Assembly (NCBI RefSeq): GCF_008923205.2
Contig: NZ_WBMS02000026.1
Span: 1 to 64,000 of the forward strand
Source: Actinomadura physcomitrii
GTDB taxonomy: Bacteria > Actinomycetota > Actinomycetes > Streptosporangiales > Streptosporangiaceae
DNA: 64,000 nt
Direction: 5' to 3'
The notes under the pieces are model-generated. The model had not been told where the DNA came from, searched no databases, and saw nothing but the letters and a program-made list of their open reading frames with translations. Positions 7,905 to 43,517 of the stretch are shown piece by piece (positions within the stretch are counted from its first letter, which is position 1; each line of letters begins with the position of its first letter). The position numbers and the translations under genes are program-made.

Positions 7905-8711
7905 TCAGCCGCTCTGCCGCAGCGCCGGGTGCGCGCCGGCGGCGACGAGGTCGGCGACGGCGGTCCGCGGGTCGCGGCCGATCACCAGGCTCTCCCCCAC
8001 CAGCACCGCGTCCGCGCCGCTGGAGGCGTAGGCGAGCAGGTCGTGCGGGCCCCGCACGCCGGACTCGGCGATCCGCACGACGTGCTTGGGGATCGCGGGC
8101 GCGACGCGGGCGAAGACGTCCCGGTCGACCCGCAGGGTGCGCAGGTCGCGCGCGTTCACCCCGATGACCTTGGCGCCCGCGTCCACCGCGCGGGCGGCCT
8201 CCTCCTCGGTGTGCACCTCGACGAGCGGGAGCAGGCCGATCGACTCGGCCCGCTCGACCAGGGACACCAGCGCGTCCTGCTCCAGCGCGGCGACGATCAG
8301 CAGCGCCATGTCGGCGCCGTGCGCGCGCGCCTCCCACAGCTGGTAGGAGGTGACGATGAAGTCCTTGCGCAGGACGGAGACGTCGACGTTGGCGCGGACG
8401 TCCGCGAGGTCCTGCAGGCTGCCGCCGAAGCGGCGCCGCTCGGTCAGCACGCTGATCACCTTGGCGCCGCCGGACTCGTAGTCGCGGGCGAGGGCGGCGG
8501 GGTCGGCGATCGCGGCGAGCGCGCCCTTGGACGGGCTGCTGCGCTTGACCTCGGCGATGACCGAGACGCCGGGCCCGCGCAGCGCGGCGAGCGCGTCGCG
8601 GGGGGCCGGGGCGGCGGCGGCCTGGTCCTTCAGCGCGCCGAGCGGCACCTCCCGCTGCCGTTCGGCGAGATCGGCGCGGACGCCGTCGATGATCTCGTCC
8701 AAGACGCTCAA
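7905..8711 (-). CDS. trpC: Indole-3-glycerol phosphate synthase
   Basis: TrpC closes the ring of carboxyphenylamino-deoxyribulose phosphate to give indole-3-glycerol phosphate, the substrate of TrpA. The barrel motifs [12 protein letters not shown] (residues 52-63, with E54 and K56), VLRKDF, VNARDL and IAESGV are all present. The start is TTG at 8711, supported by an AGGGGG Shine-Dalgarno sequence about nine bases upstream and by the typical N-terminus MSVLDEII. The length of 268 is normal. It is a stand-alone enzyme, not fused to TrpF. The TrpF step is probably done by PriA at 27.4-28.2 kb. Confidence 0.97.
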
Positions 8712-8844
8712 GTGGTAGGCCCCCTATTTCAGGTCGATCCGTGCACCGATCGTAGCCGCCCCCGCCGACGGTCCTCGCACCCGGGAGGGGTCCGGGACGT
8801 CCGCGGGACGCGGCGGTCCGGCGGCCGGCGGCACCGTCCGCGGG

Positions 8845-33814: not shown

Positions 33815-34321
33815 ATGAGCAAGCGGGCAGGGAACGGGAAGCCGGGCGGCCGGGGGACGCCGGCCACGGTCGCCGCGGCCGACGCCGGGATCGAGTTCAC
33901 CGTGCACGCCTACGAGCCGGACCCGGACGCCGAGTCCTACGGCGAGGCGGCGGCGGACGCCCTCGGCGTCCCCTACGACCGGATCTTCAAGACGCTGCTG
34001 GCGGAGGTGGACGGGCGGCTGACCGTCGGGATCGTCCCGGTGTCGGGGTCGCTGGACCTGAAGGCGCTGGCCGCGGCGGCGGGCGGGAAGAAGGCGGCGA
34101 TGGCGCACCCGCGCGACGCCGAGCGCGCCACCGGCTACGTCGTCGGCGGGATCAGCCCGCTCGGCCAGCGGCGCCGGCTGCCGACGGTGATCGACGCGTC
34201 GGTGTCAGCCCTCGCGACCGTCTACGTCTCGGCCGGTCGGCGCGGACTGCAGATCGAGCTCGTCCCCGCCGACCTCGTCGCCCTCACCGGCGCCACCGTC
34301 GCCGCGATCGCCCGGGGGTAG
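33815..34321 (+). CDS. YbaK/EbsC-type aminoacyl-tRNA deacylase
   Basis: The 168-residue product matches YbaK, which hydrolyses mischarged Cys-tRNA(Pro) and so guards translation accuracy. The conserved lysine K59 in RIFKTL, the segment GGKKAAMAHP, and the YVVGGISPLG substrate loop are present. The ATG at 33815 gives a normal length. The 3' part overlaps the opposite-strand membrane gene by 117 bases. Confidence 0.92.
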   Translation: MSKRAGNGKPGGRGTPATVAAADAGIEFTVHAYEPDPDAESYGEAAADALGVPYDRIFKTLLAEVDGRLTVGIVPVSGSLDLKALAAAAGGKKAAMAHPRDAERATGYVVGGISPLGQRRRLPTVIDASVSALATVYVSAGRRGLQIELVPADLVALTGATVAAIARG

Positions 34322-34807
34322 CCGGCGGACCAGGACCTCCAGCAGCCCGTACGCGGCGACCGAGACCACCGGCCAGAACACCAGCACGCCCTTGGCGCGC
34401 AGGTCGGCGACGCCGGTGACGGTGGCGCCGTCGCGGCCGTGCCGGACGACGTCCTGGTAGTGGCCGAGCCCGATCAGGTGGCCGGTCTTCCAGGCGAGCA
34501 GGGACGCGGCGGCGCCGCCCGCGGCGAGCCCGAGGATCAGCGCGATGTCGTTGCGGCGGCCCCGCGCGGCGTAGCCGGCGATGCCGCACAGCAGGCCCGC
34601 CGCCAGGGCGATCAGCGCGAACCGGCCGTCGATCCCGACCGGGCCCTCGCCTTCCGGATCGGCGATCAGCGCCTCACCCTGGATGATCACATATGTGACC
34701 TTGGGGATGGTGTTTCGCCACAGCAGCCCCGCGAGCGGCCCGAGCAGCGTCACGATGGCGGTGGTGACCAGCCAGGTCGTCAACTGCCTGCCGGTCGGTC
34801 GCCGCAC
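34205..34807 (-). CDS. DUF2567-like membrane protein
   Basis: This 200-residue protein has four hydrophobic segments (about residues 10-30, 62-82, 90-107, 140-160) and an extracytoplasmic loop after the first helix, a pattern of the actinobacterial DUF2567 family; function is unknown. It starts with GTG at 34807 with a GAGGAG ribosome binding site. The last 39 codons overlap ybaK antisense and encode a hydrophilic Gly/Asp tail, so the tail may simply be read-through of the antisense codon bias. Confidence 0.75.
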   Translation of the reverse strand: MRRPTGRQLTTWLVTTAIVTLLGPLAGLLWRNTIPKVTYVIIQGEALIADPEGEGPVGIDGRFALIALAAGLLCGIAGYAARGRRNDIALILGLAAGGAAASLLAWKTGHLIGLGHYQDVVRHGRDGATVTGVADLRAKGVLVFWPVVSVAAYGLLEVLVRRLPPGDRGDGGAGEGDEVGGDELDLQSAPTGRDVDGREG

Positions 34808-34949
34808 TGCGTACGCTCCTCGGTGGAAGTGTCCTCTGACAGCGAAAGCCTAGCCTGCCCAGGTCAGCTGATCGACAATCGAATGGTGTCCGATTACCGC
34901 CGTGATTCCCGCCCGCGACCGCCTCGGTTACTGGGATAATGTGCCCGAC

Positions 34950-35663
34950 ATGTCCGGATTCAGTCCCGCGTTCGAACGCCTCGGCGCCGCCCTGGCGGCC
35001 GTCGTCCTGCAGCGGCAGGAGACGCTCGCCGAGTTCCTCCCGCGCGAGGACTGGAGCGCCGACCTCACCGCCCGCACCTACACCAGCGGCGGCGTGACCG
35101 TCCGCGTCTCGCTGCTCGGCTCCTACGCCGCGCGCGAGCGCACCTGGCTGTGGGGGTGGGCGAACCCGCAGTTCGGCGACGCCCATCCCGCGGTCGTCCC
35201 GACGCTGGTGATCCGCGCCCTCGGCGAGCGGCTCGGCATCACCGAGTTCACCACCCCCGAGGTCGACCTGTCCTGGTACGACGGGCCCGCCGGGCACGGC
35301 GGCGAGCTGATCGCGATGGCGGCGGGCGGGGTGCTGCAGGGCGCCGGCTACATCGGCGCCGGCTACGACGGCGGCTCGGCCTACCTGCACGTCGACGACC
35401 CGCAGGTGCCGGCGGCCGGCTGGGACCCGATCCCGGTCCCGCGGCTGCTGACCGGGGCGGCGAGCCTGTTCCCGCACGAGCCGCGGCTCACCCTCGCGGG
35501 ACTGCTGTCGCACCACCGCGTCGCCTACAGGCAGACCGACGAGGTGACGGAGATGCGGCTGCCCGGCGGCGGGACCGCCCGCGCGCTGTTCGACGGCCTC
35601 GGCCGGTTCGTCGACTGGCAGGCCGAACTGGTGCCCCCGGCGCCCGCCGCGCTCCGCGGCTGA
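34950..35663 (+). CDS. DUF6882-like protein
   Basis: The 237-residue soluble protein shares the pattern of DUF6882, with a repeated WxWGWANPxF-type segment (LWGWANPQFGDAHPAV), and no known function. I chose the ATG at 34950 because the upstream GTG adds 16 residues before a normal-looking start. It contains no catalytic motif I recognise. Codon bias matches the neighbours. Confidence 0.7.
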   Translation: MSGFSPAFERLGAALAAVVLQRQETLAEFLPREDWSADLTARTYTSGGVTVRVSLLGSYAARERTWLWGWANPQFGDAHPAVVPTLVIRALGERLGITEFTTPEVDLSWYDGPAGHGGELIAMAAGGVLQGAGYIGAGYDGGSAYLHVDDPQVPAAGWDPIPVPRLLTGAASLFPHEPRLTLAGLLSHHRVAYRQTDEVTEMRLPGGGTARALFDGLGRFVDWQAELVPPAPAALRG

Positions 35664-35768
35664 CCGCGCGGCGGGCCGGTACCGGACACCCGCTCGACGC
35701 CCCCTCTCACGGTGAGCCGCCACGCGGGGCAGGCCGGTGGGGAAGACGACGCCGTGGCCCTAGGGCGA

Positions 35769-37382
35769 TCAGGCACCGATCATCGACCGCAACGAGGTCT
35801 CCAGCATCAGCGGCCGAGACAACTGCTCTACGGGGCCGCCGGCGCGGGCGTCCTCGCACACGTCCAGCACGGCGTCGGGATCAATGAGCCCGGCATCGGC
35901 GAGGATGGACCCGGACCGGATGACCTCTGCCAGCAGCGGAACACCCCACCGCCGCATCGCCGTCTCCATCACGGGCGCGAAGTTCTCGCGCAGCACCGGC
36001 CACACGACCGCCTCGGACATGCCACGCCGTCCCAAGAACCGGCGGAACAGCACCTTGCGGCGCCGCCACTGCACCGGAAGTTGCTCGGCGAAGCGCAACA
36101 GCTCCGGAGTGGCCAGCGGAGAGACCGGCCACAGCCCCTGCCGCATCGTCTGCGGCCACCGTGGCTCCAATCCGGTCAACGTCGTGTACTTCAGAACCGG
36201 CGCCGGTGCCGGGCCCTCTTCCAACCATGCCAGCGCGTCACGGCCGCTAGGACCGAGCCAGTCCGGGATCGACCGCAGCGTGCGCGGCCGGTTGAGCCGG
36301 CGGCGTTCCTCCGGGCGAAGATCCAGAAGGTCGTCGCCGGCGGCGCCGGTGAACACCGTGGTGACACCGGCGGCTACAAGTCGCTGTTGGAGCACGGTGG
36401 TGGCCTCGGCGGTGTTCCCGTCGCTGGGAGCGAACGGGACCCCCGCCCGGCGAACACCACCGGGCTTGAACGGCGCGTGCTCGGCGACCGGAACGACATG
36501 ATCGGGTCCGAGCCCGAGCCGCTCGATCAACTCGTCCCGGCGGCTCATCTGCTGGACGCCGGCCTCGCCCGGCAGGTTGAGCACCGCCGTGTGGACACTG
36601 TGCGGAGAAGCTCGGTGCAGGTCGGAAAGCGCGACCGCGACGACCGCCGAGTCCATCCCGCCCGACAGCTCGATCGCGGTGCGGCCAGGCGCGGCACGCC
36701 ACTGCCCGGTCACCTCGGTAAGCAGACCCTCCAGCACTGCGACCGGGTCGGCGCCGGACCTCAATTCGCGGGGCAGCGCGTGTCTGGCCGCCGACGGATA
36801 GACGATGTCCAGGCCCTTCCCGTCGAAGCAGGCGGTCGCGCGTTCGGTGAGCGTGTACACCTCCCGAAAGATGGTCTGAGTGCTATAGAGCACTCGCATC
36901 GACAAGAACCGGGTGGCCTCATCGAGGTTGATCCGGTCAGTCGACCAGAACGCCGACAGGTCCAGCAGGTCCCACGACCCGTGCAGCGTGCCGGCGTGGA
37001 CGGTGAGTTGGAGCGGTGCGGCGCTGATCGATCCGCAACTGATCCGCGCCTGGCTGAGACCGGCCGCAGTGCCCGCGTCCAGGTCGATGACGACGAATCC
37101 CAGCGGCCAGGCGCCGGCAGCGCGACGTAGATCCTCGAACAGTTCGGCGTCCACCTGGACGGGACGCGCGCCGGGCTGCGGCGCGGGCAGGACGTCAGGG
37201 CCTGCGGCGCGCTCGCGCACCACCAGGAACGCTGCGGAGCCATCGGTCCTGGCGACCATCTGGTGCTCCAGCGCCTCGTGCGCGAACGGCTCGAACGACC
37301 CGCACGCGGACGACCAGCTTTTACCGTTGAACTCCCATCCAGCGATCGGGTCGGGGCCACCGGTGATCTGCAACTTCAGCAT
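35769..37382 (-). CDS. Lasso-cyclase-like asparagine synthetase homologue
   Basis: The 537-residue protein has an N-terminal domain (1-215) like the glutaminase half of AsnB but without the catalytic Cys2 (it starts Met-Leu-Lys), and a C-terminal AsnB-type adenylating domain with the PP-loop SGGMDS at 240-245 and TGAAGDDLL at about 345-353. A missing glutaminase cysteine with an intact PP-loop is the pattern of lasso-peptide macrolactam synthetases (protein C), which adenylate a side chain carboxyl and close it on the N-terminus of the core. The ATG at 37382 has a GAGGGA ribosome binding site. It follows a 43-residue peptide gene and a stem-loop. It resembles what is called the albusnodin-type cyclase group; no B protease or RRE is nearby. 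An ordinary amide synthetase cannot be excluded. Confidence 0.8.
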   Translation of the reverse strand: MLKLQITGGPDPIAGWEFNGKSWSSACGSFEPFAHEALEHQMVARTDGSAAFLVVRERAAGPDVLPAPQPGARPVQVDAELFEDLRRAAGAWPLGFVVIDLDAGTAAGLSQARISCGSISAAPLQLTVHAGTLHGSWDLLDLSAFWSTDRINLDEATRFLSMRVLYSTQTIFREVYTLTERATACFDGKGLDIVYPSAARHALPRELRSGADPVAVLEGLLTEVTGQWRAAPGRTAIELSGGMDSAVVAVALSDLHRASPHSVHTAVLNLPGEAGVQQMSRRDELIERLGLGPDHVVPVAEHAPFKPGGVRRAGVPFAPSDGNTAEATTVLQQRLVAAGVTTVFTGAAGDDLLDLRPEERRRLNRPRTLRSIPDWLGPSGRDALAWLEEGPAPAPVLKYTTLTGLEPRWPQTMRQGLWPVSPLATPELLRFAEQLPVQWRRRKVLFRRFLGRRGMSEAVVWPVLRENFAPVMETAMRRWGVPLLAEVIRSGSILADAGLIDPDAVLDVCEDARAGGPVEQLSRPLMLETSLRSMIGA

Positions 37383-37421
37383 CGTTCCCTCGGTTTTCCT
37401 ACGCAGGGGGAGCAAAGGGAG

Positions 37422-37475
37422 AGCGGCCCCGGAACCGGACGTGAGGGCGGAGCCATCCGAACTCCGGGGGCCGCT
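37422..37475 (-). terminator. Stem-loop between peptide gene and cyclase gene
   Basis: Arms at 37422-37433 and 37463-37475 pair as AGCGGCCCCGGA with one bulged base, about 12 bp. It lies between the small peptide gene and the cyclase gene on the same transcript. Such partial terminators or RNA-stabilising hairpins are common in RiPP operons and give more precursor than enzyme; here that is inference. No long T run follows. Confidence 0.6.
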
Positions 37476-37487
37476 GGGGAGAAGAGG

Positions 37488-37619
37488 TCAGTCCTCCTCG
37501 GTGTAGGTGTCGCTGTCACCCGGGGTCTTGCTGTTGAGCGCCTCGGCCGCCGGGATCTCCAGCACCTGCGGACCCGCGAACAGGTCCTCCACCGCGCGTT
37601 GGGTCGTCTCGGTCATCAT
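37488..37619 (-). CDS. Putative lasso-type precursor peptide (43 residues)
   Basis: A short frame from ATG at 37619 (an adjacent second ATG follows) to TGA-type stop at 37488 has an excellent AAAGGAG ribosome binding site. The leader is residues 1-33, with the hydrophobic segment GPQVLEIPAAEAL, and it ends KTP. The C-terminal GDSDTYTEED (34-43) has Gly first, Thr at position -2 and Glu at positions 8 and 9, as in lasso cores that close an 8- or 9-residue ring. The tail after the ring would be only one or two residues, so either the lasso is minimal or the product differs. It overlaps no other gene and precedes the cyclase homologue. It is too short for family detection from memory. Confidence 0.65.
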   Translation of the reverse strand: MMTETTQRAVEDLFAGPQVLEIPAAEALNSKTPGDSDTYTEED

Positions 37620-37813
37620 CTCGATCTCTCCTTTCCCCGGGCCGCCTGCCGGCCCGGCGGTCAGCGTGTCCCGCCTGTCATATACACAACTCCATTGGAA
37701 CGGCGGCGACCATAGCGGCGTGTTTTTCTCGATTTTTCTTACCAGCCGGATAGGCGAGTGCCCTAGATTCCTGATGGCGAAGGGAAGATAGTGGCCCCCG
37801 GGAGGTGGCAACA
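37620..37813. promoter_or_regulatory. Divergent promoter region of the peptide cassette
   Basis: This 194-base gap separates the peptide gene (minus) from the regulator (plus) and is clearly less GC-rich than its surroundings, with T- and A-rich stretches around 37680-37770. A GC-rich hairpin (arms CCGGGCCG at 37637-37644 and its complement at 37650-37657) lies just upstream of the peptide's ribosome binding site. No -10/-35 pair is clear enough to name. Confidence 0.5.
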
Positions 37814-39202
37814 ATGCCGAGACCTCGCATGATCGAGATCCGCAACACCGCACTGGACACCGAACTGGCCCGGATCGGAATACCGCTCACAGCAGTCGCC
37901 GATCAGATCAACCAAGTAGCAGAGGAGAACAACTGCCACTTTCGCTACAACGCCAGTTCGCTGTCGCACTGGCTCACCGGACGTACACCCCAGCCAGAGC
38001 GGATCCCCGTGATCGTTGAAGCTTTCCGGAGGCTGCTCGTCGCGCCCGGCCTGCGTGCGGCCGACTTAGGCTGGGAAGAGGCTGATCAGGACGGGGAGGA
38101 TCCGGAAGGTGCGGATCCGTGGCGAGCAGACCCGATGACCTGGTTGGACCACCTCGGGAGGCTCGATATGTACCCCGATGACCGCGTACCGGATCATCGT
38201 CCCGGCCGTCGAACCCTGCTGTTCTCGCTGGCGGCCGCCGCCGTTCCCGCCGCCTCCGGCGCTCCGCCCCGGCCATCACCCAGCCCGGGCAGGACGGCAG
38301 GCTCCGCCGAGGCCGCTCGTATCCGAGAAGTGAGCACGGTCTTCAGCGATCTGGACGACCGATTCGGCGGCGCCCATGTCCGCGCCTCGATCGCGGCCTA
38401 CCTCACCAACCACGTCGTCCCCGTGCTCCGGCACGCGTCCCCTCGAAGTCGACCGGCACTCTTCGCCGCAGCGGCGGAAATGTCGTACCTAGCCGGATGG
38501 ATGGCCAGCGACGCCGGAAAAGCCGGAATTGCTCAGGGATATTACATTCAATCGGTTCGGATGGCCGTTCAGGCGGACGACTACCGGTTGAAGGCCACCA
38601 CCCTACGCGCCATGGCGCTACAGGCCGTGGAACTTGGCCACACCAGACACGGACGCGACCTTGCCGACGCCGCGGAACGGACTCTTCCGGCATCGGCGCC
38701 CCCTCGGCTCCGTAGCTGGATCACCGCCATGCGCGCGGAAGCCCACGCAGCCGACGGCGAATCTCAGGCCGCCCGTATTCTCCTGAAAGCTGCCGAGCGA
38801 GACCTTGAACGTGCCTCATCGTCCCAGGCCCCGGACTGGACGGGCTCCTCCTACTCCCACGCTGCCCTTCGCCACCAGACCGGAACAACTCTGGCCAGCG
38901 CCGGGGACCTGGCTCCAGCCGAGGAATACCTTTCGGCCTCCTTGATCGGCCGCCCCGGCACTCAACGCCGCTCCCGGTCGCTCATCGGAACTCGACTCGC
39001 CGCCTTGCAGCTTCGCCGCAACCAGCCGGACGCCGCCGCGCTGACCGTCGAATCCATCAGCAGCGACCTGACGATGGTGGTATCCGCCCGTGTCGACCGT
39101 GAGCTGGGCCGCCTACGCGCGAACTGGAGCAAGGCACGGTCCGATCCCACAGTCAGCGAGATCGATCATTTCGTCGCCGGGCTCATTCGGCAACGCGCGT
39201 AG
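37814..39202 (+). CDS. HTH regulator with helical C-terminal domain
   Basis: The 462-residue protein has an N-terminal DNA-binding region (about 8-75) with a helix-turn-helix-like segment around SSLSHWLTGRTPQPERIPVIVEAF, an acidic linker, a short hydrophobic stretch (RRTLLFSLAAAAVPAA, about 132-147), and a C-terminal all-helical region of about 300 residues that looks like TPR-type repeats. This plan is frequent in actinomycete XRE-like regulators. The ATG at 37814 has a GGGAGG site nine bases upstream, better placed than the GTG three codons earlier. It diverges from the peptide gene and is the natural candidate for its control. Confidence 0.75.
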   Translation: MPRPRMIEIRNTALDTELARIGIPLTAVADQINQVAEENNCHFRYNASSLSHWLTGRTPQPERIPVIVEAFRRLLVAPGLRAADLGWEEADQDGEDPEGADPWRADPMTWLDHLGRLDMYPDDRVPDHRPGRRTLLFSLAAAAVPAASGAPPRPSPSPGRTAGSAEAARIREVSTVFSDLDDRFGGAHVRASIAAYLTNHVVPVLRHASPRSRPALFAAAAEMSYLAGWMASDAGKAGIAQGYYIQSVRMAVQADDYRLKATTLRAMALQAVELGHTRHGRDLADAAERTLPASAPPRLRSWITAMRAEAHAADGESQAARILLKAAERDLERASSSQAPDWTGSSYSHAALRHQTGTTLASAGDLAPAEEYLSASLIGRPGTQRRSRSLIGTRLAALQLRRNQPDAAALTVESISSDLTMVVSARVDRELGRLRANWSKARSDPTVSEIDHFVAGLIRQRA

Positions 39203-39222
39203 CGAGCGCCCGGCCCAGACGG

Positions 39223-42200
39223 TCATTGGCGGACAGCGCGCGGGCCGAAGAGGCTTTTGACGTCTCCGAAGAACGCCGAGTCCGCGCGGACCTGGAAGTA
39301 CTCCAGGTTGTAGAGGGTGCCACGGCCGCCGGGGAGCAAGCATTCCAGATGGACGGGGGCTTCTCCTGGATGGGCGGTGAGAACGCGCTTGAGTTCGAGG
39401 ACGGTCTTGTTGTTGATCTTGTCGTTGGGGACGCTGATGACGACGGGCGGCTCTTTGCCCGTGGCGGCGGACACGTCCAGCACTTGCATCTCCTGGGCAT
39501 TGATGGAGACGCTGCCGTCACGTTCGTTGATCTTGCCCAGGACGCTGATGACCACGTCGGACGCGAGCGCCGCGCTGTAGAGCTGGTAGGAGGAGGGGAA
39601 GAACAGGACCTCGATGGTGCCGTCGAGGTCTTCGAGCTTGACGATCGCCCAGGTGTTGCCCTGCTTGGTGACCTTGCGGTCCAGCCCGGAGATCAGCCCG
39701 GCCAGCCGCACCATGCCCTGCCGGCCGCCGGCGCTGGCCTCGGCGGTGGTGACGTCCCGGTTCTTCTCCAGGATCCGTTCGGCCCCGTCCAGCGGATGGG
39801 ACGACACGTACAGGCCGAGCATCTCCCGCTCGAAGGTCAGCAGCGTCGACTTGTCCCACTCGTCGCCATCGGGGATGGTCACGGCGAGCGATGAACCGCC
39901 GGCGTCGTCGGTGTCCAGGCCGCCGAACAGCGAGTCCTGTCCGATCGCGGCGTTCTTCTTCTCGCTGATCACCGACTCGACGGCCGCTTCATGGACCATC
40001 ATCAGCGCCCGGCGCTGGTGCCCGAGGTCGTCGAACGCGCCCGCCTTGATCAGCGATTCGATGGCGCGCTTGTTGCACACCGGCATCGGCACCTTGTCGA
40101 GGAAGTCGCCGAAGTCGGTGTAGGCGCCCTTCTCCTTGCGGGCGGTGATGATGCCGTCCACGACGTTGTCGCCGACGTTGCGGATCGCGCCGAGCCCGAA
40201 CCGGACGTCGTCGCCGACCGCGGCGAACACCCCGATGGACTCGTTGACGCTCGGCGGCAGCACCTTGACCTTCATGCGGCGGCATTCGCCGAGGTAGACC
40301 GCCATCTTGTCCTTGTTGTCGCCGACGGAGGTCAGCAGCGCGGCCATGTACTCGGCGGGGTAGTTCGCCTTCATGTACGCGGTCCAGTACGACACCATCC
40401 CGTACCCGGCGGTGTGGGACTTGTTGAACCCGTACTGGGAGAACGGCACCAGGACGTCCCAGACCGCCTGCGCGGCTTCGGCGGAGTAGCCCTTGTCCGC
40501 CATGCCCTTGGAGAAGATGGACCACTGCTTGTCCATCTCCTCCTTCTTCTTCTTGCCCATCGCGCGGCGCAGCAGGTCCGCGCCGCCGAGGGTGTACCCG
40601 GCGAGCTGCTGCGCGATCGCCATGACCTGCTCCTGGTACACCACCAAGTGGTAAGTGGTACCGAGGATCGGCTCCAGCGCGTCCTTCAGCTCGGGGTGGA
40701 TCGGGGCGATCTCCTGCTGCCCGGCCTTGCGGAGGGCGTAGTTGACGTGGGCGTTGGCGCCCATCGGGCCCGGCCGCCCGAGCGCGAGGACGGCGGAGAC
40801 GTCCTCGAACCGGGTCGGCGCCATCAGCTTGGTGAGGTCCCGCATCATCGACGAGTCGAGCTGGAACACACCGAGTGTCCACCCGGCGCGCAGCAGCGCG
40901 TAGGTCTTCTCGTCGTCCATCGGGATGTCGGTCAGCTTGACCTCGATCCCGCGGTTGGCCTTCACGTTGTGGATCGCGTCACCGAGGATCGTCAGGTTCC
41001 GCAGCCCCAGGAAGTCCATCTTGAGCGCGCCCAGCTCCTCGCAGGAGGGGCCGTCGTAGCCGGTGATGCGGGCGCCGTCGTCGGGGCGCTGGTGGATCGG
41101 CATCACGTTGATCAGCGGCTCGGAGGACAGGATCACCCCGGCGGCGTGCACGCCGGTGCCGCGGGTCAATCCCTCGATGCCGACGGCGGTGTCCATCACG
41201 CGTTTGACGTCGACGTCGTCGGAGTACAGCTGGCGCAGCTCGGTCGCTTCGCTGTAGCGGGGGTGGGACTCGTCGAACACCGCCGACAGCGGGATCTCCT
41301 TGCCGGCGGCGGCCGGCGGGAACGCCTTGGTGATGCGGTCGCCGAGCGCGAACGGCAGTCCGTGGATGCGGCAGGAGTCCTTCACCGCCGCCTTGGACTT
41401 GATGGACATGTAGGTGATGATCAGTGAGACGTTGTCCCGGCCGTACTTCTCGGTGACGTAGTCGATCATCTGCTCGCGCTGGCGGTCGTCGAAGTCGAGG
41501 TCGACATCGGGCATCGACACGCGCTCGGGGTTGAGGAACCGCTCGAAGATCAAACCGTGCTCGATCGGGTCCAGGTCGGTGATGTCGGTGACGTAGGCGA
41601 CCATCGACCCGGTCGCCGACCCGCGACCCGGACCCAGCCAGATGCCGTTGTTCTTGGCGTACCGGCAGATGTCGGAGACGACGAGGAAGTAACCGGGGAA
41701 CCCCATGTCGTCGATGACCTTGAGTTCGTACTCGATGCGCTCGAGCACCTCGGCGGGGACGGGGTCACCGAACCGGTTCACCGCGCCGGCCATCGCCTCC
41801 TTGCGCAGCCAGCTGCTCTCAGTCTCGCCTTCGGGAATGGGGAACTTCGCGGCAAGGTCGCGGCGCTCGTACACCTCGTCGTAGGGCTCGACCATCTCGG
41901 CGACGAGCAGGGTGTTACGGCACCCCTCCAGCCAGGCGTCGGAGGAGTCCACGGCCCGCATCTCATCAGCGGTCTTGAGGTAGTAGCCCGACCCGCCGAA
42001 CCGGAACCGGTCAGGGTCGGTGATCAGCGCCTGCGTTCCGACGCACAGCAGCGCGTCGTGCGCGGTCGCCTGGTCCTCGGTGACGTAATGGGAGTCGTTG
42101 GTGACCAGCGGCGGGATCCCGAGCGTCTGCGCGATCTTCAGCAGATCCTCGCGGACCCGCCGCTCCAGCGGCAGCCCATGGTCCATCAACTCCAGGAAGT

Positions 42201-42780
42201 AGTGGTCCTTGCCGAAGATCTCCTGGTACTTCGCCGCCGCCTTCAACGCCTCGTCGTACTGGCCGAGCCGAAGACGCGTCTGCACCGCCCCCGACGGGCA
42301 TCCGGTCGTGGCGATGAGGCCCTTGGAGTGCTCGGCGAGCAGCTCATCGTCCATCCGGGGCCACTTGCGGTAGTGCCCCTCCAACGAAGCGCGCGAAGAG
42401 AGTCGCATCAGGTTCCGCAGGCCCTCGGCGTCACGCGCCCAGATCGTCTTGTGCAGGTACGACCCGGACGCGGAGACGTCACCGCCCTCACCGGTCTGCT
42501 CGTTGGTCTTCTTCTGGTGCGGCTCGCCCCACAGGATCGGCTTCTTGACGAACCGCGACTCGGGCGCCACGTATCCCTCAATCCCGATCACGGGCTTGAT
42601 GTCGGCCTTCTTGGCCGCCTTCCAGAACTCATACGAGCCGAACAGGTTGCCGTGGTCGGACATGGCCACCGCCGGCATGCCCAGTTCGGCGGCCCTGGCC
42701 ACCAGCGGACTGATCTTCGCAGCGCCGTCCAACATGCTGTACTCGGTGTGAACATGCAGGTGAACGTAAGAGTCGGCCAT
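39223..42780 (-). CDS. dnaE: DNA polymerase III alpha subunit (DnaE1 type)
   Basis: This is the replicative polymerase catalytic subunit, 1185 residues, full length. It has the N-terminal PHP domain (HLHVHTEYSMLDG, residues 7-19, and SDHGN), the catalytic aspartates in PDVDLDF (D424, D426), the FNKSHTAGYG segment, and the C-terminal OB-fold and beta-clamp-binding region near QDSLFGG. The ATG at 42780 has a GGAGG ribosome binding site; two upstream in-frame ATG codons lack one. It sits in the standard actinobacterial neighbourhood of rluD-like, lspA and ileS. The convergent gene ends 20 bases away. Confidence 0.97.
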   Translation of the reverse strand: MADSYVHLHVHTEYSMLDGAAKISPLVARAAELGMPAVAMSDHGNLFGSYEFWKAAKKADIKPVIGIEGYVAPESRFVKKPILWGEPHQKKTNEQTGEGGDVSASGSYLHKTIWARDAEGLRNLMRLSSRASLEGHYRKWPRMDDELLAEHSKGLIATTGCPSGAVQTRLRLGQYDEALKAAAKYQEIFGKDHYFLELMDHGLPLERRVREDLLKIAQTLGIPPLVTNDSHYVTEDQATAHDALLCVGTQALITDPDRFRFGGSGYYLKTADEMRAVDSSDAWLEGCRNTLLVAEMVEPYDEVYERRDLAAKFPIPEGETESSWLRKEAMAGAVNRFGDPVPAEVLERIEYELKVIDDMGFPGYFLVVSDICRYAKNNGIWLGPGRGSATGSMVAYVTDITDLDPIEHGLIFERFLNPERVSMPDVDLDFDDRQREQMIDYVTEKYGRDNVSLIITYMSIKSKAAVKDSCRIHGLPFALGDRITKAFPPAAAGKEIPLSAVFDESHPRYSEATELRQLYSDDVDVKRVMDTAVGIEGLTRGTGVHAAGVILSSEPLINVMPIHQRPDDGARITGYDGPSCEELGALKMDFLGLRNLTILGDAIHNVKANRGIEVKLTDIPMDDEKTYALLRAGWTLGVFQLDSSMMRDLTKLMAPTRFEDVSAVLALGRPGPMGANAHVNYALRKAGQQEIAPIHPELKDALEPILGTTYHLVVYQEQVMAIAQQLAGYTLGGADLLRRAMGKKKKEEMDKQWSIFSKGMADKGYSAEAAQAVWDVLVPFSQYGFNKSHTAGYGMVSYWTAYMKANYPAEYMAALLTSVGDNKDKMAVYLGECRRMKVKVLPPSVNESIGVFAAVGDDVRFGLGAIRNVGDNVVDGIITARKEKGAYTDFGDFLDKVPMPVCNKRAIESLIKAGAFDDLGHQRRALMMVHEAAVESVISEKKNAAIGQDSLFGGLDTDDAGGSSLAVTIPDGDEWDKSTLLTFEREMLGLYVSSHPLDGAERILEKNRDVTTAEASAGGRQGMVRLAGLISGLDRKVTKQGNTWAIVKLEDLDGTIEVLFFPSSYQLYSAALASDVVISVLGKINERDGSVSINAQEMQVLDVSAATGKEPPVVISVPNDKINNKTVLELKRVLTAHPGEAPVHLECLLPGGRGTLYNLEYFQVRADSAFFGDVKSLFGPRAVRQ

Positions 42781-43163
42781 GCCCGATGCGCCTCCTGATG
42801 CTCGCATGCGACCGCCCACGTGCGTGGCCCGCACGTGGTCGCGTTATCGGTCCCGGGGGAAGATCGCCGTCCCGGCCGGGTCGCCGGGATGGCGCGGTCC
42901 TGAGAGCCTAACCCCGTCCGGGGGGCGTCCGCTCCCCGACGCGCCCACCGTCTCGCGCGTCACATCCGGCACTCGCCGCGCCCTCTCCGGGATGTCTCAC
43001 GGAGCGAGACGGGCGTCCGGGATTTGACCGGCACGGGGCCTCCCGCCCTACCATTCACCGACCGACTTCCGACCGACCTCCCGGCCTGGGGCAGGCCTTC
43101 CGAACGCGGCCCCGGGCACGGATCCCCCGCGCGGTCCGGTCGCCGCGAGAGAGGGAGACCGCC
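42781..43163. other. Intergenic region between dnaE and chorismate mutase
   Basis: This 383-base divergent gap contains no gene. It holds the palindrome GTCTCACG..CGAGAC at 42994-43010, a possible promoter TTGACC (43024-43029) with TACCAT (43049-43054) and an unusually long 19-base spacer facing the chorismate mutase gene, and a CCGACCGAC-type repeat near 43059-43080. A dnaE promoter should also lie here but I cannot place it. Confidence 0.5.
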
Positions 43164-43517
43164 ATGCACGACCAGGTCATCGACGCCGCCGGGACGTCCT
43201 GCCCCGCCTGCGAGCCCGCCGACCCGCTGCTGCGCGTGCCGCTGCCGTCCGTCGCGGACCTGGGCACCGTTGCGGAGGCGCGCGCGGCCATCGACGGGCT
43301 GGACGCGGCGCTGGCCGTGCTGCTGGAGCGCCGCGCCGAGGTCGCCGCGCTCGTCCAGCGGCTCAAGCCCGTCGGCGGGTTCGCGGGCCGCAACCCCGAC
43401 CGGGAGCGGGCGATCGTCGACGCGATGGCCGAGCGCGCGCCCTCCCTCGGCCGCGACCGGCTCGCGCGGATCATGAACGCGGTGATCGAGGCCGGCCTGG
43501 ACGCCGCCGAGCGCTGA
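43164..43517 (+). CDS. Chorismate mutase, AroQ type
   Basis: The 117-residue product is a short helical AroQ-fold protein, with the first-helix pattern A-R-A-A-I-D-G-L-D-A-A-L-A-V-L-L-E-R-R followed by AALVQRLKP and a final helix with DRLARIMNAVIEAG. Chorismate mutase converts chorismate to prephenate for phenylalanine and tyrosine. The catalytic Arg/Lys/Glu set could not be checked residue by residue. A 30-residue N-terminal extension with two cysteines (SCPACEP) precedes the domain. The ATG at 43164 follows a GAGGGAGA ribosome binding site. Confidence 0.8.
   Translation: MHDQVIDAAGTSCPACEPADPLLRVPLPSVADLGTVAEARAAIDGLDAALAVLLERRAEVAALVQRLKPVGGFAGRNPDRERAIVDAMAERAPSLGRDRLARIMNAVIEAGLDAAER

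Follow-up and report, generated by a model that had tools for sequence, protein, structure and literature searches.

A conserved peptide and an AsnB-like ligase of Actinomadura physcomitrii as a candidate two-gene macrolactam cassette

What could an enzyme related to asparagine synthetase B (AsnB) do to a small peptide encoded directly ahead of it, at a locus where we found no leader peptidase? We examined such a pair in the first 64,000 nucleotides of contig NZ_WBMS02000026.1 of Actinomadura physcomitrii (GCF_008923205.2), the whole stretch being called the window here. A sequence-only reading had taken it for a minimal lasso-type pair in which a 43-residue peptide gene with the ribosome binding site AAAGGAG precedes a gene for a 537-residue AsnB homologue, and both genes are present as described, on the minus strand. 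We consider it probable that the pair is a two-gene cassette for a ribosomally synthesized and post-translationally modified peptide (RiPP), in which an ATP-using ligase would adenylate the side-chain carboxylate of Asp37 in the 43-residue precursor and would close a macrolactam between Asp37 and an amine of either Lys31 or an adjacent residue, with no need for a dedicated leader peptidase or RiPP recognition element (RRE). The features of the pair are:

35769..37382, minus strand: AsnB/β-lactam-synthetase-like ligase, 537 aa from its ATG, the proposed macrolactam synthetase
37488..37619, minus strand: precursor peptide gene with two ATGs, encoding 43 aa, MMTETTQRAVEDLFAGPQVLEIPAAEALNSKTPGDSDTYTEED; leader of about residues 1-29, then a conserved C-terminal part, SKTPGDSDTYTEED
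37509..37532, minus strand: putative ring segment Ser30-Lys31-Thr32-Pro33-Gly34-Asp35-Ser36-Asp37, with Lys31, Gly34 and Asp37 at invariant positions
37491..37493, minus strand: Asp43, the C-terminal residue (Lys+12), invariant in 62 actinobacterial precursors and not in two plasmid ones
37383..37487, minus strand: gap between the peptide and ligase genes with a predicted hairpin, a possible attenuator on weak statistics

The AAAGGAG site lies 5' of the first ATG of the peptide gene, and the genome holds a single copy of the ligase-peptide cassette. Precursors at other loci were small open reading frames (ORFs) upstream of the ligase gene, picked by similarity and position across loci with the motif ignored, and were recovered from 82 actinobacterial loci (62 distinct sequences, window included) and as 12 distinct gammaproteobacterial sequences. 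An ordinary AsnB locus (L041) was left out of the counts, and no precursor was recognisable at some actinobacterial loci (L038, L039, L040, L077, L118, L126, L134, L135, L136) or at one of Flavobacteriaceae (L110). A small ORF matching the window frame occupies the corresponding position at 81 further actinobacterial loci, with 61 additional distinct sequences, and shares four invariant residues with it. We therefore regard the frame as beyond chance; conservation in relatives had been proposed as a check on it.

Four columns were identical in all 62 distinct actinobacterial precursors, K-x2-G-x2-D-x5-D (Lys, Gly at +3, Asp at +6 and Asp at +12), which the window precursor spells as K31-TP-G34-DS-D37-TYTEE-D43. 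Precursors at two actinobacterial loci outside this set, on Streptomyces plasmids (L160 and L161; at L161 an unannotated ORF nearer the ligase was taken, an annotated small ORF there being without the motif), kept Lys, Gly+3 and Asp+6 and had Glu and Cys at +12, and Asp+6 is therefore favoured as the bonded residue. The residue before the motif Lys was K in 51, T in 10 and S in one of the 62 precursors, and P, I, M, F, L or D elsewhere. Xanthomonadales precursors had K-x5-D in 10 of 12 distinct sequences and K-x6-D in the other two, while K-x5-D was found in all six plasmid precursors read (two from Rhizobium, one each from Mesorhizobium and Xanthomonas, two from Streptomyces), a Rhizobium example being MIKGGKPGDMDKLDV. 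Among 27 hand-picked representatives (11 of the 62 actinobacterial, 10 of the 12 Xanthomonadales and all 6 plasmid precursors), Lys and Asp at a distance of six formed the commonest residue pair of the last 30 residues, present in 24 of 27 (mean 4.8 and maximum 12 in 2000 shuffles); the three misses were two K-x6-D peptides and one with the motif farther from the C-terminus.

The ligase has lost the glutaminase cysteine, residue 2 being Leu, and keeps the PP-loop SGGMDS at residues 240-245, both as first noted from the sequence. Its sole Pfam match was PF00733 (33.6 bits), and its score against NCBIfam TIGR01536 (16.4 bits) was far below the cut-off. An AlphaFold2 model from 25 aligned members (pLDDT 90.9, pTM 0.91) aligned over its whole length with the AsnB/β-lactam-synthetase fold (TM-score 0.55-0.60, rmsd 10), with a different placing of the domains. 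The best solved Foldseek matches by E-value were β-lactam synthetase (2.9e-14), carbapenam synthetase, TsnB9 and AsnB, and a family profile searched against PDB sequences gave one match at E ≤0.01, again β-lactam synthetase. β-Lactam and carbapenam synthetases act on small-molecule substrates, and the intramolecular amide formation that they carry out is like the one proposed here.

In a tree of 59 rows selected from the fetched sequences, 37 family rows formed one clade (100/100) on a long stem. Outside it stood 16 lasso cyclases linked to a B protein (95/84), three triculamin-type cyclases (100/100) and two AsnB, and the third PF00733 protein of the A. physcomitrii genome took a very long branch with no sure place. 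Lasso-cyclase kinship, as originally proposed, was therefore not recovered, the enzyme lying outside all 16 lasso cyclases tested; it also stood apart from the true asparagine synthetases of the tree, and an ordinary asparagine synthetase was rejected given the missing Cys2 and a clade separate from AsnB. The model for albusnodin/ikarugamycin cyclases (NF033561) gave no match to the window enzyme at E ≤1 and matched 19 of the 25 aligned members at E ≤0.01 (best 2.4e-8), the one score seen, for locus L066, being 19.8 bits against a cut-off of 300. The suggested likeness to albusnodin thus holds weakly for relatives and not for the window enzyme. Many relatives do share with albusnodin the combination of an AsnB-type cyclase and an acetyltransferase, the latter being mentioned for albusnodin in PMC13352647.

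We searched for a leader peptidase and an RRE in flanks that measured about 9 kb at most larger loci, 4 kb for the named-genome set described below and 5-6 kb on plasmids, shorter at contig ends. A hidden Markov model (HMM) built from 15 true B proteins matched at canonical lasso loci only across all these loci, plasmids included, and its best match among all window ORFs of at least 30 aa had an E-value of 0.23. An RRE HMM found nothing in positions 34272-38882 of the window and, across loci, matched canonical lasso loci only, and a Pfam scan of the five neighbour proteins in the window found no leader peptidase, RRE or exporter, in line with the original description of the neighbourhood. In the genomes of 29 relatives, PF13471 had 27 matches in 21 genomes and none at all in 8, and on the contig of the cassette no match came closer to it than 500 kb, some cassettes being on short contigs. 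A look for an unlinked B protein across the A. physcomitrii genome, as had been suggested, found one in a canonical lasso cluster on another contig (C48; L063, 5485-8290), together with cyclase, PqqD and ABC genes. Canonical lasso clusters resemble the window pair in combining an AsnB-type enzyme without Cys2 with a small leader-bearing precursor, whereas the pair and its family differ in having no B or RRE that we could find, no conserved Thr(-2) and an enzyme outside the lasso clade. We rejected the idea that the pair is a canonical lasso cluster whose B protein had been overlooked, since the loci yielded none in the flanks searched and the one in the genome is accompanied on C48 by the cyclase, PqqD and ABC genes of a separate cluster.

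The family was sampled in two genome sets that overlap, and distinct sequences rather than loci were used as the measure for that reason. The 298 same-family genomes gave 31 matches including the A. physcomitrii genome itself, one of which (G101) was an ordinary AsnB. Among named genomes, a scan recovered 73 loci, of which 60 were actinobacterial, 12 of the gammaproteobacterial Xanthomonadales type and 1 of Flavobacteriaceae; it relied on one peptide pattern, [VL][VF]TG[LI]GGDE, so it is not a full census, its 73 loci carry the motif by selection, and members with other motifs (window, Rhizobium, Streptomyces plasmid) were beyond its reach. Order- and class-level samples also contained members, and many weak matches there resembled ordinary AsnB fragments. 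A plasmid search returned 43 records, among them 24 from Rhizobium and 12 from Bradyrhizobium, the latter matching about half of the query at 29% identity in the search alone. A phage search gave zero family matches, and phage origin was rejected on that basis. On two Rhizobium plasmids, L159 (4632-8848) and L157 (2367-7530), the peptide and AsnB-like genes lie near an acyl-homoserine lactone (AHL) synthase gene, and on one of the two the pair is directly before nifH. The Xanthomonadales-type loci (L114-L117, L120, L121, L125, L127-L129, L131, L137) encode precursors of the form NPFGIQ..EGPLQ..APK-x5-D, and neither GNAT nor B was found at these twelve. Locus L035 has two tandem precursors (about 8302-8750 of the oriented locus), with the ends KKFAGTSDTAHTKDE and KKKAGSSDTAHTQDEIIT.

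Of 31 large loci, all but the AsnB locus had a GNAT acetyltransferase gene adjoining that of the ligase. Such a gene was also present at 60 of the 73 named-set loci, a count that possibly shares the pattern bias; the 13 without it were the 12 gammaproteobacterial loci and the one of Flavobacteriaceae. GNAT was thus present at 30/30 and 60/60 actinobacterial loci of the two main sets. At L066, the closest relative of the window pair (43% identity), it lies just upstream of the peptide gene. In the window, no GNAT was found in a 25-kb segment, and the best match to the family GNAT HMM among all ORFs of at least 30 aa had an E-value of 0.34. The model also found none in the fetched stretches of L160 and L161, one of which begins only 0.8 kb upstream of the match, and it missed a gene annotated as GNAT two genes downstream at the Mesorhizobium locus L158. 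One family-type GNAT match elsewhere in the A. physcomitrii genome was rejected as the GNAT of this cassette (35% identity, E 7.6e-7, unrelated context). The motif Lys was retained where GNAT was not found, namely in the window, the gammaproteobacteria and the two Streptomyces plasmids.

Which residues would be joined is the point on which the possible readings part. Given the invariant positions and the separate enzyme clade, we favour a lactam on Asp37, six residues past Lys31, over the ring of the sequence-only reading, in which the peptide would be cut before Gly34 and the Gly34 amine joined to Glu41 or Glu42 (Glu8 or Glu9 counted from Gly1). The Gly34 position is indeed invariant, together with Lys(-3), Asp4 and Asp10 in the same numbering, but the two Glu residues and Thr(-2), all present in the window sequence, are unconserved among precursors, and a leader peptidase was not found. 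Such a ring is extremely improbable, and the one- or two-residue tail deduced from it does not follow, because conservation does not support the ring. For the lactam on Asp37, we slightly favour the ε-amine of Lys31 as the attacking amine, and only tentatively, since no gene that would release an N-terminus was found at the loci and Lys is the only nucleophile in every precursor compared. Graspetides offer a parallel, being leader-bearing precursors on which ATP-grasp enzymes form side-chain to side-chain lactams; a Lys-Asp lactam would be the same type of bond, made by an AsnB-type instead of an ATP-grasp enzyme.

The amine could also be that of Ser30, as the comparison with triculamin brings out. 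A table in PMC13192320 gives triculamin as cyc(SKKSKPGD)GIRGKGVRG, with the same Lys-Asp distance of six (ring positions 2 and 8) and a Ser1-Lys2...Asp8 spacing identical to that of the window segment. An unlinked protease would then cut before Ser30, the Ser30 amine would be joined to Asp37 in an eight-residue ring, SKTPGDSD, with the tail TYTEED, and Lys31 would serve recognition or activity and be the GNAT target in relatives. The genome of Streptomyces triculaminicus carries a family member (L083) and, elsewhere, a separate triculamin gene (MSKKSKPGDGIRGKGVRG, then a C-terminal extension, with no leader). On one side this gene is adjoined by those of an ABC transporter and a 424-aa Asn_synthase protein, and on the other by helix-turn-helix (HTH) and GNAT genes. 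GNAT and HTH genes beside the cyclase are also found in many relatives of the window pair, and as in the pair there is no B gene directly beside the cyclase. PMC13352647 describes Lys acetylation as a means of self-resistance to triculamin and lariocidin, and the proposed ring would leave the Lys free for GNAT; at the GNAT-bearing locus L043, moreover, the motif Lys is the sole Lys of the C-terminal part. The Rhizobium segment IKGGKPGD is similar to SKKSKPGD, and products of 14-18 residues would fit lassos. However, the triculamin precursor is leaderless with a C-terminal extension, whereas a leader is present here and no linked protease was found; the residue before the Lys is variable, Pro included; and the 424-aa cyclase belongs to another clade, whose placing as sister to the family has weak support (82/66) and joins two long branches. 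Some 4-7 kb from the triculamin gene, a canonical cyclase paired with a B protein could serve triculamin, the window pair is without the GNAT neighbour of the triculamin type, and the lariocidin cluster, according to PMC11451635, contains B1B2C, in contrast to the pair, where no B was found. We therefore regard a triculamin-like macrolactam or lasso as possible rather than likely. At about position 1268 of L163, a leaderless triculamin-like peptide, MSKKSHPGDGSHGLGAKG..., lies near a triculamin-type cyclase.

Several observations weigh against a macrolactam cassette that dispenses with peptidase and RRE. The adenylation of Asp37, lactam formation, release and function are inferred from sequences and models. 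The precursors are related by descent, so the 62/62 invariance does not amount to 62 independent events. Of 16 canonical lasso loci available, the RRE HMM detected an RRE at just 11, which makes its silence weaker evidence, as a divergent RRE could escape it; the flanks were limited, with several cassettes on short contigs; and the B protein on C48 could act in trans on the window pair. By TM-score, TsnB9, a hydroxyamidotransferase (0.66), ranked above β-lactam synthetase (0.55). At the alignment place of Glu348 in AsnB and Tyr348 in β-lactam synthetase, members have Leu, Ile, Val, Thr, Ser or Phe and the window enzyme has Ala, and the window reads TGAAGDD where the family has TG[LI]GGDE.

Two further readings draw on these points. 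The enzyme might attach a small molecule or amino acid to the peptide Asp without cyclizing it, as the TM-score of TsnB9, the highest listed, would allow; but the glutaminase Cys2 is missing, the best E-values belong to intramolecular lactam formers, and a conserved Lys stands at a near-fixed distance from the Asp, and we consider this distinctly improbable. The window copy might instead be silent or in decay, a remnant left from the family, given its deviating motif and its lack of the GNAT found throughout the two main actinobacterial sets. Against this, the two Streptomyces plasmid loci likewise show no GNAT in the fetched stretch, both window frames are intact, the four precursor positions are kept, and a ribosome site and regulator are present. 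With the nearest homologue at just 43% identity, a frame free of selection would probably have been disrupted by now, and a remnant appears rather unlikely.

The pair lies in DNA that differs from its surroundings, with the following further features:

35707..43103, no strand: foreign low-GC block of 7.4 kb between native flanks, with its right edge between 43054 and 43104
37805..39202, plus strand: divergent NsdA-family regulator (NF053720, 308.7 bits against a cut-off of 75)
39223..42834, minus strand: foreign DNA polymerase III alpha subunit gene (dnaE) in place of the native one, within the same block; a possible self-resistance gene

Window DNA was 92.7-96.1% identical up to 35.7 kb, and 87-91% identical from 43104 on, to the three closest of six same-genus genomes compared, and G+C was 0.655-0.70 inside the block against 0.73-0.77 outside. 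A DUF6882 gene was found in 60 of 60 same-genus genomes searched; in 13 of 14 stretches around it, dnaE was 0.2-2.3 kb away (measured to the ends of the matched parts), with none in the 14th, and none of the 14 had a ligase or regulator match. The window dnaE was 61-63% identical to the dnaE of eight relatives, which were 90-98% identical among themselves, and the other DnaE-like matches of the A. physcomitrii genome reached 29%, 33-35% and, for one short piece, 40% (assembly about 98% complete). Among the sequences compared, the window DnaE was nearest to one Nonomuraea gerenzanensis copy (65%), another copy in that record being 77% identical to native Actinomadura DnaE. The block lacks a GNAT as well as having its native dnaE replaced. 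Among 110 other fetched loci, none had a dnaE close to the ligase gene. A replaced essential gene that arrives with a biosynthetic pair can mark self-resistance, as with nargenicin and DnaE. By analogy, the polymerase might be the target of the product and the foreign DnaE an immunity gene that arrived with the cassette, which we think unlikely; passenger recombination would explain the swap too.

The divergent regulator, noted earlier as an HTH protein, belongs to the NsdA family and has no Pfam family above cut-off. The other four of the five neighbour proteins are DUF6882, DnaE, a protein to which no family was assigned and a protein that has a LON substrate-binding domain and lacks a protease domain. 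No Rfam element was found in 35600-43300, and folding of 37383-37490 gave a hairpin of -44.5 kcal/mol (z -1.86), equalled by 8 of 200 shuffles. Neighbour clusters recurring in at least four loci comprised regulators of NsdA, XRE and Sco1979 types, DUF397 proteins, a PIMT-like methyltransferase, a response regulator, a short-chain dehydrogenase, an ABC ATPase (at four loci, between four and nine genes from the ligase) and proteins of about 80 aa without a Pfam match; no protease was among the named clusters. At L160 an ABC ATPase gene lies about 0.9 kb past the ligase. Methyltransferase genes are close to the ligase at L051 (7063-8187) and L161 (6281-7027), the L051 PIMT-like protein scoring 359.5 bits against TIGR04188, below its cut-off of 380, and methylation of Asp is possible.

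A literature search of titles and abstract openings, with subscription papers mostly outside its coverage, gave no description of the cassette family among the entries listed, which is not proof of novelty. It is conceivable, though doubtful, that the family is a RiPP class unnamed in the literature searched, in which an AsnB/β-lactam-synthetase-type ligase joins the side chain of the invariant Lys to an Asp six or seven residues on, in the intact precursor and with no peptidase or RRE, in Actinobacteria, Xanthomonadales and rhizobial plasmids. Relatives of the pair in distant bacteria, lacking the protease gene of comparable lasso pathways, point to an unrecognised route to cyclic peptides. 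If this is true, AsnB-type enzymes would make ribosomal macrolactams without leader peptidase and RRE; because these are the common anchors of lasso genome mining, the family could escape it. The spacing of six between Lys and Asp is a rule open to testing, and the attacking amine makes a clean question. Peptide stapling would profit from an enzyme able to close lactams on a peptide that carries a leader. The swapped dnaE of the window provides a direct route to testing a replication target, and the range of the family extends to rhizobial plasmids, where in one case the pair immediately precedes nifH, with an AHL synthase gene nearby.

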